Source: Streptomonospora salina
GTDB lineage: Bacteria > Actinomycetota > Actinomycetes > Streptosporangiales > Streptosporangiaceae
Direction of reading: 5' to 3'
Assembly: GCF_014204715.1 (NCBI RefSeq)
Contig: NZ_JACHLY010000001.1
Coordinates: 4,920,501 to 4,984,500 of the forward strand
DNA: 64,000 nucleotides
The stretch's first letter is position 1. Every line of letters begins with the position of its first letter. The notes under the pieces are model-generated. The model saw only the letters and a list, made by a program, of their open reading frames with translations. It was not told the DNA's origin and did not search any database. Shown one piece after another: positions 24,188-38,429 of this stretch. A program made the translations under genes and the position numbers.

Positions 24188-25903
24188 TCAGGCTCGGTCT
24201 TCCACGGGCCGAGGGGCGGGCCCCGCCTCTGCCCGGGTGCTGCGGCGGGAGCCGTGGACGTGGACGACGCGTTCGAAGCGGGCGAGCGTCTCGGCGCGGT
24301 GCGATGCGGCGAGTACGGTGCCGTCGAACTCGGCGATGACGTCGGAGACGATGCGCTCGGTCTCCGGGTCGAGGCTCGCGGTGATTTCGTCCACCAGCAG
24401 CACGCGCGGTCGCCGGATGAGGGCGCGGGCCAGGCACAGGCGCGCCTGCTGCCCGCCGGAGAGGCGGAGGCCGCCTTCTCCCAGCTCCTCGTCGAGATCG
24501 GCCCAGTCCTTGGCGCCGACGCGTTCGAGCACGGCGGACAGTTCCGTGTCGGGGCGCGGCCGGGTCCCGCGCAGGAGGTTGTCGCGGACGGTGCCGTGGA
24601 ACAGCCGGGCGTCCTGCTCGACCAGGGCCACGGCGCCGCGGAACGCCTCGTCGTCGAGTTCGGTGACCGGGACGGCCGTGCCGTCGGCGGCGAGCTCGAC
24701 GGTCCCCGCCGACGGGTCCCACAGGCGGGCCGCGAGCGCGATGATCGTGCTCTTGCCCGCCCCGGAGGGCCCTGCGAGGCCGACGTGCTCACCGGGTGCC
24801 ACGTCTGCCGACCATCCCTCCAGCGTCGGCCGCCGGTCGTCGTAGGCGAACGAGACCGCACGGAACCGGAGGCCGAGAGAGCCGCTGGGAACCTCCTGCG
24901 GCCGGTCGGGCGCGGATACGACCGGCGGGCGGTTGATACCGGAACCGACGCGTCGCGCGCTCGCGGTGAGGGGATGGAGCTGGGTCAGGACCGCGGTGGC
25001 CTCGGTGACGGCTGTCACGCCTGCGAGGGCGAGAGCCACGAGCGCGGGCAGGACCGCCGGGGACAGGCGTGCGTCGGCGGGGCCGGAGAGCATACCCGCG
25101 GCGGCGGCGCTGACGGCGATGACCCCGATCACGACGGCGGTGACGATCAGCTCGCGCACCCCGGCGGTCAGTTGGGAGAGCAGTTCCCGCCGGCGGGTGA
25201 CCGCGGCCGCGCGCGCGGTGGCTGTGGCGGTCTCGGCGATGATCCGCGGCGCGAGGCCGTAGCCGAGCACCTCGCGCAGCGCGCCGAGCGCGTCGACGGT
25301 CTGTGCCGAGAGGGTTTCGCGGTCCTGTTGCTCCCGTTCGCCGGTCCGTCTGGCGGCTCCGGACCAGCACAGCGCCGTCCCCGCGACCAGCGCACTGCCG
25401 AGCGACATCACCAGCGCCGCCTCGGGCAACAGGAACAGGGCGGCGGCGAAGGAGGCGAGGAAGACGGTCAGCGAGGCGCCCAACTGGGCCACGGTGTGGG
25501 CGTAGAAGAACTCGAGTTTCTCGATGTCGCCCATCGCGACGGCCGCCGCGCGCCCGGAGTGCTCGCGGCGGCGTGCGGGAACGCTGCGCGCGTAGGCGTC
25601 GAAGAGCGCCATCCGCAGGCGGGCCAGCACACGGTAGGCCAGGGCGTGGGACACGTCCATCTCCTGCCAGGTGAACAGGGTCCGCAGCAGTACGAGACCG
25701 ACGGCGGCAGCCCACCAGAGCGGTCCGGGCGGTGTCCGCTCGACGATCGCGTGGCCGACCGCCCAGGCCGTCAGCACCGCCAGACCGGCGAGACCCAGGG
25801 CGCTCGCGGTCGCGACGAGATAGCCGGCGAGCATGCCGCGCCATTCGGGGCGCAGCGCGGGCAGGAGTCGGCCGAAGGTGCGCAGCGCTGCACGGGTACT
25901 CAC
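24188..25903 (-). CDS. ABC exporter half-transporter 2 (permease-ATPase fusion)
   Basis: The protein has 571 residues: six membrane helices (about 15-300) and a C-terminal ATPase with Walker A GPSGAGKSTIIAL, signature LSGGQQARL, Walker B VLLVDEITASLD and H-loop ASHRAE. All catalytic residues look intact. GTG at 25903 overlaps the stop of the upstream half-transporter by four bases, so they likely form a heterodimer. It resembles CydC/exporter half-transporters. As the last gene of the ribosomal-peptide operon, it probably helps export the mature product. Confidence 0.9.
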   Translation of the reverse strand: MSTRAALRTFGRLLPALRPEWRGMLAGYLVATASALGLAGLAVLTAWAVGHAIVERTPPGPLWWAAAVGLVLLRTLFTWQEMDVSHALAYRVLARLRMALFDAYARSVPARRREHSGRAAAVAMGDIEKLEFFYAHTVAQLGASLTVFLASFAAALFLLPEAALVMSLGSALVAGTALCWSGAARRTGEREQQDRETLSAQTVDALGALREVLGYGLAPRIIAETATATARAAAVTRRRELLSQLTAGVRELIVTAVVIGVIAVSAAAAGMLSGPADARLSPAVLPALVALALAGVTAVTEATAVLTQLHPLTASARRVGSGINRPPVVSAPDRPQEVPSGSLGLRFRAVSFAYDDRRPTLEGWSADVAPGEHVGLAGPSGAGKSTIIALAARLWDPSAGTVELAADGTAVPVTELDDEAFRGAVALVEQDARLFHGTVRDNLLRGTRPRPDTELSAVLERVGAKDWADLDEELGEGGLRLSGGQQARLCLARALIRRPRVLLVDEITASLDPETERIVSDVIAEFDGTVLAASHRAETLARFERVVHVHGSRRSTRAEAGPAPRPVEDRA

Positions 25904-37389: not shown

Positions 37390-38429
37390 ACCGCCGCCCC
37401 GACCGAACGCGTCCGCGCGCCACGACGCGTACCAGCACGCTTCCCTCCACGCTCGCCGCGCTGAGCGCGGTCCCCCTCGCCTTGACAGCGTGCGGAACCG
37501 GGGTCACCTCCGATTCCGCGGACTCCCAGGGTCCGGAAGAGACCGTGGAAGTCGCGAACTGCGGACGCAAGCTCACCTTCGACACCACTCCGGAGAACGT
37601 CGTGGGAATGATGCCCTCCCAGACCGGGATGCTCATCCGGCTCGGTCTCCAGGACTCCCTCGTCGGCCAGGCACAGACCGATGTCTCAACGCTTCCCGAG
37701 GACATCGCCGAAACGGCGGCGGAGGTCCCCGTCCTCAGCACGGACGCACCGCCGGCGCGCGAAGACCTCCTCGCCACCGCCCCCGACCTCGTGGTTTCGC
37801 CGACGGAGTACGAGTTCACCGCGGAGCAGGGCTTCGCAAGCGTCGACCAGCTCAACGAGAACGGCGCCCAGGCCTATGTGGCGACCGGCGGCTGCACCGA
37901 CCGCCGCAACACCGCGGAGGTCACCGACGTCCTGACCGACATCACCGACCTCGGCGCGATCATGCGCGTGCCGGAGGAGGCCGAGAAGCTGTCGACGGAA
38001 GCCGAGGACCGGCTGTCGGCCGTCGACGAGGCGATCGAGGGCTCGCAGCGCCCGACCGTCGCCCAGGTCTATGTCGAGGGCGAGTCGCTCTCGGCGATCG
38101 GCGCCGGCGTGGAAGCCGACATCATCAAGCGGGCCGGCGGCGACAACGTCTTCGACCCGGACGCCCCCGAGTTCGCGGAGTTCTTCGCGGCCGAGATCAA
38201 CCCCGAAGAGATCATCAGCCGCAACCCCGAGGCGATCGTCTTCGGGGCCACGGGAGCGGCCCAGGAGGAGAAGACCCGGGAATACCTGCACAGCACCTTC
38301 CCCGACGTCGCCGCCGTCGAGGACGATGTGCTCATCGCCGTTTCCCAGGCCGACCTGCACCCCGGCACCCTCGGCAACATCGGCGCGGTCGAGACCATCG
38401 CCGAGGAACTCCACCCCGGCGCGTTCTGA
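37386..38429 (+). CDS. Metal-chelate-binding lipoprotein (FecB/BtuF-like)
   Basis: The protein has 347 residues. A basic N-terminus, a hydrophobic stretch and the lipobox ALTAC (Cys about 37) make it a membrane-anchored lipoprotein. The periplasmic-binding-2 fold is shown by VVGMMPSQTGMLIRLGLQDS, LLATAPDLVVSPTEYEF and IISRNPEAIVFGATG. Two further Cys (in VANCGRK and TGGCTDR) could form a disulfide. It closes the five-gene operon. Ligand specificity cannot be read from sequence; a metal-peptide chelate is the contextual guess. Confidence 0.92.
   Translation: MNRRPDRTRPRATTRTSTLPSTLAALSAVPLALTACGTGVTSDSADSQGPEETVEVANCGRKLTFDTTPENVVGMMPSQTGMLIRLGLQDSLVGQAQTDVSTLPEDIAETAAEVPVLSTDAPPAREDLLATAPDLVVSPTEYEFTAEQGFASVDQLNENGAQAYVATGGCTDRRNTAEVTDVLTDITDLGAIMRVPEEAEKLSTEAEDRLSAVDEAIEGSQRPTVAQVYVEGESLSAIGAGVEADIIKRAGGDNVFDPDAPEFAEFFAAEINPEEIISRNPEAIVFGATGAAQEEKTREYLHSTFPDVAAVEDDVLIAVSQADLHPGTLGNIGAVETIAEELHPGAF

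Follow-up and report, generated by a model that had tools for sequence, protein, structure and literature searches.

The streptamidine (ami) cluster was published in 2021 from Streptomyces albidoflavus J1074 (MIBiG BGC0002115; PMC8442711) and comprises amiA, amiB, the hydrolase gene amiC, the YcaO gene amiD, the dehydrogenase gene amiE, the ATP-binding cassette (ABC) genes amiT1-T2, and amiX. Its core peptide, HLSATH, is converted to a six-membered amidine with no azole, AmiB was assigned an E1/TruD-like fold by Phyre2, and, among the peptides encoded next to stand-alone YcaO genes in Actinobacteria, the streptamidine family was found to be the most abundant (PMC8442711). Four FecBCDE-like genes occur in over 90 clusters of the major subset, where they do not define the family; the authors proposed metal import, and found neither metal binding nor a phenotype (PMC8442711). 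The word Zur is absent from the main text of that paper. Here, we describe a related cluster in Streptomonospora salina, within a 64,000-nucleotide stretch of assembly GCF_014204715.1 (contig NZ_JACHLY010000001.1, positions 4,920,501 to 4,984,500; “the window”, from whose first letter coordinates are counted). At the level of sequence, the cluster belongs to the streptamidine family, the Zur-type box in its promoter gap is conserved among relatives, and the importer is retained together with the ABC pair. We read it, with moderate confidence, as a cluster for a ribosomally synthesized and post-translationally modified peptide (RiPP) that is repressed by Zur and would work as a zinc-acquisition loop. 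Control by Zur is very likely, and a shared zinc-acquisition system is the probable function.

Several other systems invite comparison. Methanobactin and the bufferins are tied to copper and are made by enzymes of the multinuclear non-heme iron-dependent oxidase (MNIO) type or others; neither is known to involve a YcaO amidine or Zur. Coelibactin and ethylenediamine-disuccinate (EDDS) are not known to involve a ribosomal precursor or YcaO. We know of no Fec importer accompanying klebsazolicin or bottromycin. Like methanobactin, the S. salina product would be a ribosomal peptide tied to metal homeostasis, a trait also attributed to the bufferins (PMC12452194). Coelibactin, EDDS and pseudopaline are listed as Zur-controlled metallophores (PMC6103462). 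With coelibactin of S. coelicolor and EDDS of Amycolatopsis, the S. salina cluster shares metallophore-type biosynthesis under a putative Zur control with a 7-1-7 box (PMC5472717 and PMC6103462); that the S. salina product binds zinc is a hypothesis. A YcaO-made amidine ring, predicted here, is shared with klebsazolicin and bottromycin (PMC8442711), which have different precursors and are antibacterial. In addition, a YcaO-TfuA thioamide cluster is described in PMC13174530, the available part of which does not mention Zur.

Relationship to the streptamidine cluster

The S. salina locus and the streptamidine cluster have in common the precursor family, AmiB, the hydrolase, YcaO, the dehydrogenase, two ABC genes and a FecBCD-type importer; the set amiA-B-C-D-E-T1-T2 plus a Fec importer was recognized here by comparison with relatives rather than with J1074 itself. 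The core reads HLSASH here and HLSATH there. The S. salina locus further differs in having the S15/CocE hydrolase and YcaO domains fused in frame as a single gene (28735-31191), as the initial annotation had seen, in having a single permease gene and an added S9 peptidase gene, and in placing the 404-aa gene and the importer divergent from amiA over one box. The initial annotation considered such a layout undescribed, a claim that gives way to the 2021 account of streptamidine clusters with FecBCDE-like importers (PMC8442711).

The 39-residue peptide gene is acidic as first noted (10 D/E, no K/R) and clears the cut-off of the NF040714 streptamidine model (Table 1). In 106 of 106 core copies preceding SNALV, His1, Ser3 and His6 are invariant, and position 2 varies among L, D, N, A and H; the two fixed histidines fit a pair of metal ligands, and equally fit recognition by the modifying enzymes. 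Assuming the same chemistry as for streptamidine, the HLSASH amidine has a computed [M+H]+ of 633.310, and the same mass sum reproduces the published 647.326 for HLSATH. Azole formation, which had been expected from the sequence, is not supported, and an azole RiPP was rejected as the main reading: the near-identical core gives an amidine without azoles, and the SagB-like gene, though present, lies at 33.4 bits below the TIGR03605 cut-off of 78.4 for the dehydrogenase of azole-forming clusters (thiazole/oxazole-modified microcins, TOMMs; linear azol(in)e-containing peptides, LAPs). HLSASH has two Ser and no Cys or Thr, as against the Cys/Ser/Thr-rich cores of such clusters.

The remaining genes bear out the early description in part. 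The ABC genes run leftward as a CydC/CydD-type pair (24188-27570), and the S9 peptidase gene runs rightward from the gap. The amiB-like partner, annotated as ThiF-like, has no Pfam or NCBIfam match, and a PDB sequence search gave nothing convincing; the published Phyre2 assignment of an E1/TruD-like fold concerns AmiB. Similarly, the supposed propeller, a 404-aa protein, matched no Pfam, NCBIfam or propeller family, and nothing convincing in PDB. It is tentatively labeled amiX-like because its homologue adjoins the importer in Streptomyces-type loci. The importer, described as a full FecBCD-type system, has by family searches a FecCD permease, an ATPase and a binding protein (lipobox LTAC, by eye), as expected of a dedicated importer with a putative metal cargo; with its single permease gene, it falls short of the four-gene amiF set.

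Of 345 genomes in the order, 29 matched NF040714, 27 of them above the cut-off; of 396 drawn from the phylum, 3 did, S. salina included. The closest named YcaO relative, from S. alba, is 95% identical in a search that may omit near-identical records. For comparison, 112 loci with repeats were assembled (L037-L068, plus the best 80 of 200 named YcaO-domain relatives, L105-L184; loci are numbered L and genomes G). A recognizable amiA is present in 106, of which 93 are distinct after repeat removal; the other six are decayed (L063, L064) or lie on contigs that end before amiA (L108, L148, L170, L180). Gene presence in the 93 was scored as a tblastn match above 60 bits to eleven queries, amiA aside. 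Hydrolase and YcaO were each found in 92, FecCD in 86, the 404-aa homologue in 84, AmiB in 74, AmiE in 58, the binding protein in 44 and S9 in 41; T1 was matched in 92, T2 in 88 and the importer ATPase in 90, counts that may include unrelated ABC genes. All eleven were detected in 33 loci. The importer half, whose absence from most relatives the initial annotation had named as a refutation, is present in most, FecCD being the measure. An in-frame hydrolase-YcaO fusion recurs in 6 of 108 other loci holding both domains (L049, L050 and L105, the last two being the same locus, and L129, L131 and L132 of Leucobacter). The binding protein occurs in four of the six genomes of the genus, the same four that carry amiA, and in 1 of 121 Streptomyces-group genomes. 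Two side observations concern this sample: in L056 and L057 (the latter the same locus as L117) the importer is of a more divergent kind and carries a Zur-type box of its own, as though it had been exchanged, and L115, recorded as Glycomyces fuscus, shares its amiA upstream region with L041 of the Nocardiopsis group and is possibly mislabeled.

The Zur-type box

The 108-bp gap between the divergent start codons holds the Zur-like box reported initially, TGATAACGGTTTTCA, in the 7-1-7 form expected of a Zur regulon; searches of this genome and of relatives indicate that it is genuine and not a chance match. The published S. coelicolor Zur motif from chromatin immunoprecipitation (ChIP) shares the 7-1-7 form (PMC5472717). 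Allowing a single mismatch, TGAWAAYGRTTWTCA occurs at four places in the 5.6 Mb genome, and the reversed control at none. One site lies between a ZnuB-ZnuA operon and a divergent ATPase gene, and another precedes a gene for a His-rich ZnuA. A fourth, at window position 60097, sits by eye within a larger palindrome beside a TetR-type gene; it does not look zinc-related and is probably the site of another regulator. The box fits the published 21-bp motif TGANAANNNTTNTCA exactly. A sigma-70 scan of the 108-bp gap found no promoter, and the placement of the promoter therefore rests on inspection by eye, which puts the box over the -35 element and spacer (TTGATA, 17 nt, TACCTT) of a leaderless start.

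The pattern was matched in 31 of 31 related genomes among the matches listed, with reversed controls giving 0 or 1 per strand. Stretches from related genomes contain 32 pattern sites that are not upstream of amiA. Ten neighboring genes, picked by eye and scanned with Pfam, belong to nine of these sites, and eight of the 32 sites have a zinc-type neighbor: the ten encode S14, L31 (two genes), L33, CobW (two), Fur-family proteins (two), ZnuB (ABC-3) and an AMP-ligase. A 21-bp Zur matrix was then built from 11 non-ami sites, the weakest of which scores 23.7 bits. At 14 bits or more, it finds only two matches in the window, the ami box at 30.9 bits and 60094-60114 at 20.5 bits. Within 300 bp upstream of amiA, the same threshold is reached in 105 of 106 loci, duplicates included. 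Of 6641 control windows taken from these loci, 85 reach it, as do 2 of 1060 shuffles made with a first-order Markov model. Counting distinct loci, 92 of 93 have a box at 14 bits or more, 89 at 20 or more and 82 at 23.7 or more. The sole miss among these is L068, from which the segment is absent; its 3.5-Mb genome (G483) has three amiA copies with cluster genes, L066, L067 and L068. Two published motifs were also tried, with one mismatch allowed: TGANAANNNTTNTCA was found at 68 of 93 loci, and in controls at 58 of 5793 windows and in none of 930 base shuffles; the S. coelicolor ChIP motif was likewise found at 68 of 93, with 62 of 5793 and 0 of 930 in the controls.

Conservation is concentrated in the box, at 1.21 bits per column compared with 0.31 and 0.32 in the flanks (15 representatives). 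The box is kept in Streptomonospora, Nocardiopsis, Marinactinospora, Prauserella, Saccharomonospora, Microbacterium, Leucobacter, Galactobacter, Cryobacterium, Rhodococcus and Streptomyces, and that of Jiangella is weaker, at 16.9 bits. In 39 of the 93 loci, one box is common to amiA and the divergent 404-aa homologue. Further boxes of at least 20 bits number 78 across the 93 loci, 41 of them before the 404-aa homologue and six before the importer.

Loci with importer and ABC pair but no synthesis genes

The binding protein is present in 16 of 40 genomes of the group that includes Nocardiopsis (g35). Nine of the 16 have amiA above the cut-off, and seven do not (G089, G092, G099, G102, G113, G117, G125). 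Five of the seven (loci L212, L214, L213, L064 and L063) hold the ABC pair, a Zur-type box and the importer together, with box scores of 28.2, 30.0, 26.9, 31.6 and 29.5 bits, respectively. All five have intact reading frames for FecCD, ATPase, binding protein, T1 and T2; AmiB, hydrolase and YcaO were not detected in these 20-kb stretches. What is left of synthesis is fragmentary: AmiE fragments in L213 and L064, 404-aa homologue fragments in L063, L064 and L213, amiA remnants below the cut-off in L063 (with a stop) and L064, and a leader piece, seen by eye, in L212. In a FastTree of the five joined proteins, L212 groups with the producer L041 (support 1.0) and L064 with the producer L044 (0.725), next to L213; L063 and L214 form a pair of their own (1.0). 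On this topology, synthesis would have been lost three to four times.

Loss of synthesis with uptake retained characterizes shared goods such as siderophores. The retained genes also bear on individual functions. The S9 peptidase, undetected in four of the five loci and in fragments in L063, appears to be tied to synthesis and not to uptake because it was lost with the synthesis genes, and the 404-aa protein seems to go the same way; the initial proposal that the peptidase opens the peptide after import is thus not borne out. That the ABC pair was kept alongside the importer hints that it recycles peptide after import, or contributes to uptake. The broader initial claim, of a RiPP cluster that combines exporter-type genes, importer genes and a Zur-type box, is supported, and is strengthened both by the conservation of the box and by these loci.

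The two other genomes, G092 and G102, carry a distant importer with an ABC pair of a sister type and Zur-type boxes (L215 and L216), and YcaO was not detected there in 20 kb. An importer similar to theirs belongs to a sister cluster in G096 (L217:8299-17511), which has Zur-type boxes, a FecCD that is 71% identical and three stretches of YcaO similarity, and which stands near an ami cluster in the same genome. A 35-aa candidate precursor in L217 ends in HSGNHAVAAGPFAWE and has no NCBIfam match.

Closer to home, a truncated SbnB-family gene (2,3-diaminopropionate synthesis; window 38435-38962, minus strand, profile positions 36-154 of 327) lies directly behind the S. salina importer and may be a remnant of another metallophore pathway. 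Beside it is an IS5-type transposase gene (window 38993-39568, plus strand; 40.5 bits, below the cut-off). The genome has a second YcaO gene beyond the window (G000:C1:2325570-2326580; L001, L069).

Table 1. Features of the S. salina cluster in window coordinates, with the basis of each assignment.
Feature	Position	Strand	Basis
amiT2-like CydC-type ABC transporter subunit	24188..25903	-	family match; complete frame in 5/5 loci lacking synthesis genes
amiT1-like CydD-type ABC transporter subunit	25900..27570	-	family match; complete frame in 5/5 such loci, overlong in L064
amiE-like SagB-type flavin dehydrogenase (candidate)	27567..28721	-	TIGR03605 33.4 bits, below cut-off 78.4; synteny
amiD-like YcaO domain, C-terminal part of fusion	28735..30171	-	PF02624 132.8 bits; TIGR03604 190.8 bits, below cut-off 219.25
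amiC-like S15/CocE hydrolase domain, in frame with YcaO	30172..31191	-	PF02129, TIGR00976
amiB-like partner, 293 residues	31188..32069	-	synteny; 33-88% identical to 14 syntenic relatives
amiA precursor, 39 aa, streptamidine family	32167..32286	-	NF040714 66.1 bits, E 1.8e-18, cut-off 40
Predicted core HLSASH, residues 24-29	32200..32217	-	core HLSATH of the homologue in PMC8442711
Zur-type box TGATAACGGTTTTCA in divergent promoter gap	32361..32375	.	pattern and matrix searches
404-aa protein, taken for amiX-like	32395..33609	+	synteny
S9 (prolyl-oligopeptidase type) peptidase	33609..35402	+	PF00326 106.9 bits
FecCD-type importer permease	35399..36565	+	PF01032 314.3 bits
Importer ATPase	36562..37389	+	PF00005 111.2 bits
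Importer substrate-binding protein (Peripla_BP_2)	37386..38429	+	PF01497 67.0 bits; TIGR03868 111.7 bits, below cut-off 392.4

A proposed zinc-acquisition loop and its alternatives

Zur repression, zinc as the cargo, recycling and the roles of the enzymes in S. salina are what we infer from these observations. When zinc is scarce, Zur would leave the box and both divergent operons would be turned on. AmiB, the hydrolase-YcaO protein and the SagB-like protein would then cut and cyclize the precursor to an amidine peptide from HLSASH, with the S9 peptidase and the 404-aa protein assisting maturation. The peptide, or a related larger product, would leave the cell, and the FecBCD-type importer would return it with zinc. 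The ABC pair would export new peptide and probably recycle imported peptide, a role that would explain its retention in non-producers. Zinc is the most likely cargo because the box and the importer-only loci together point to it.

Several observations weigh against this loop, most directly those made with streptamidine itself. By chrome azurol S (CAS) assay and liquid chromatography-mass spectrometry (LC-MS), the purified molecule showed no binding of zinc or of the other metals tried (Fe, Co, Cu, Mn, Ni and Mg), and a delta-amiD mutant was like the wild type under metal starvation (PMC8442711). Streptamidine was made in fermentation media, whose zinc content is not given in the main text (PMC8442711), and production under these conditions gives no hint of strict repression by zinc. 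No streptamidine was made once amiF1-F4 had been deleted (PMC8442711), an outcome that a pure uptake role does not predict. Other points concern our own analysis. The sites used for the Zur matrix had been found with a pattern derived from ami boxes, a circularity that the published-motif test escapes; the S. salina box differs at two positions from the S. coelicolor ChIP motif; and 31 of the 78 further boxes lie elsewhere in the loci. In the strains that lost synthesis, absence extends genome-wide for amiA and over the 20-kb stretches for the other genes. Pairwise ratios of nonsynonymous to synonymous change (dN/dS) of 0.19-0.45 for the five genes in five loss pairs, compared with 0.07-0.62 in three producer pairs, are crude and include the time before the losses.

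Some of the same data could be accommodated by a peptide that is controlled by Zur without being a metallophore, namely a zinc-starvation signal that is imported and sensed through an importer that carries no zinc. The lack of metal binding and of a starvation phenotype agrees with such a signal, the loss of production on importer deletion is what an autoinduction loop would give, and the authors themselves suggest signaling or development (PMC8442711). We nevertheless regard a signal as unlikely: FecBCD-type systems mostly carry metal complexes, His1 and His6 are invariant while position 2 varies, and no regulator is found among the nine genes of the block that have a family match, two genes having none. 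If the zinc loop is correct, binding may have gone unseen because the final ligand differs from the molecule that was isolated; the essential dehydrogenase was left unexplained in PMC8442711.

A second question is what the ABC pair does. The exporter-fold proteins YbtPQ and IrtAB import siderophores, and the complete T1 and T2 frames in all five importer-only loci would suit an uptake device of that sort in place of an exporter or recycler. By sequence, however, T2 lies near CydC chains and T1 near ABCB1-type exporters (60 listed per protein, of 278 and 251 PDB chains matched), and deletion of amiT1-T2 lowers the streptamidine yield (PMC8442711), which makes uptake by the pair rather improbable.

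Use of the box by another Fur-family regulator, or a cargo of another metal such as cobalt or nickel, is less probable still. Fur-family boxes are mutually similar and annotation covers a minority of the other pattern sites, but the annotated sites include genes for zinc-sparing ribosomal proteins, Znu, CobW and Fur-family proteins, and the 7-1-7 form is that of the Zur ChIP motif of S. coelicolor. Iron control was rejected on a related count, with an IdeR-type 19-mer giving a best fit of 8 to 11 mismatches in 106 of 106 amiA regions. Finally, a typical azole-forming antibacterial TOMM with the importer as an accidental neighbor, for which a SagD-type YcaO and a SagB-like gene speak, both below their NCBIfam cut-offs, is very improbable, given that the product of the homologous cluster is azole-free and showed no antibacterial activity (PMC8442711), and that importer genes recur in 86 of the 93 distinct loci and persist in the five that lost synthesis.

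The zinc-acquisition loop can be extended, more tentatively and at somewhat less than even confidence, to the family as a whole: streptamidine-type peptides might be ribosomal zinc shuttles, a Zur-repressed public good also used by non-producers, with the molecule isolated in 2021 a trimmed or incomplete form of the ligand. To our knowledge, a ribosomally made zinc shuttle would be the first of its kind. Within the open-licence literature, no paper was found that links streptamidine clusters to Zur, or to zinc beyond the negative test of 2021; to the extent of that search, both the connection to Zur and the importer-only loci are novel. The 2021 study left the role of the family open, and the box and the importer-only strains now give a specific hypothesis, zinc. 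Zinc starvation would be a growth condition under which to seek the true product, and the natural non-producers would be material for cross-feeding. If the hypothesis is true, a ribosomal class would be added to the zinc metallophores.

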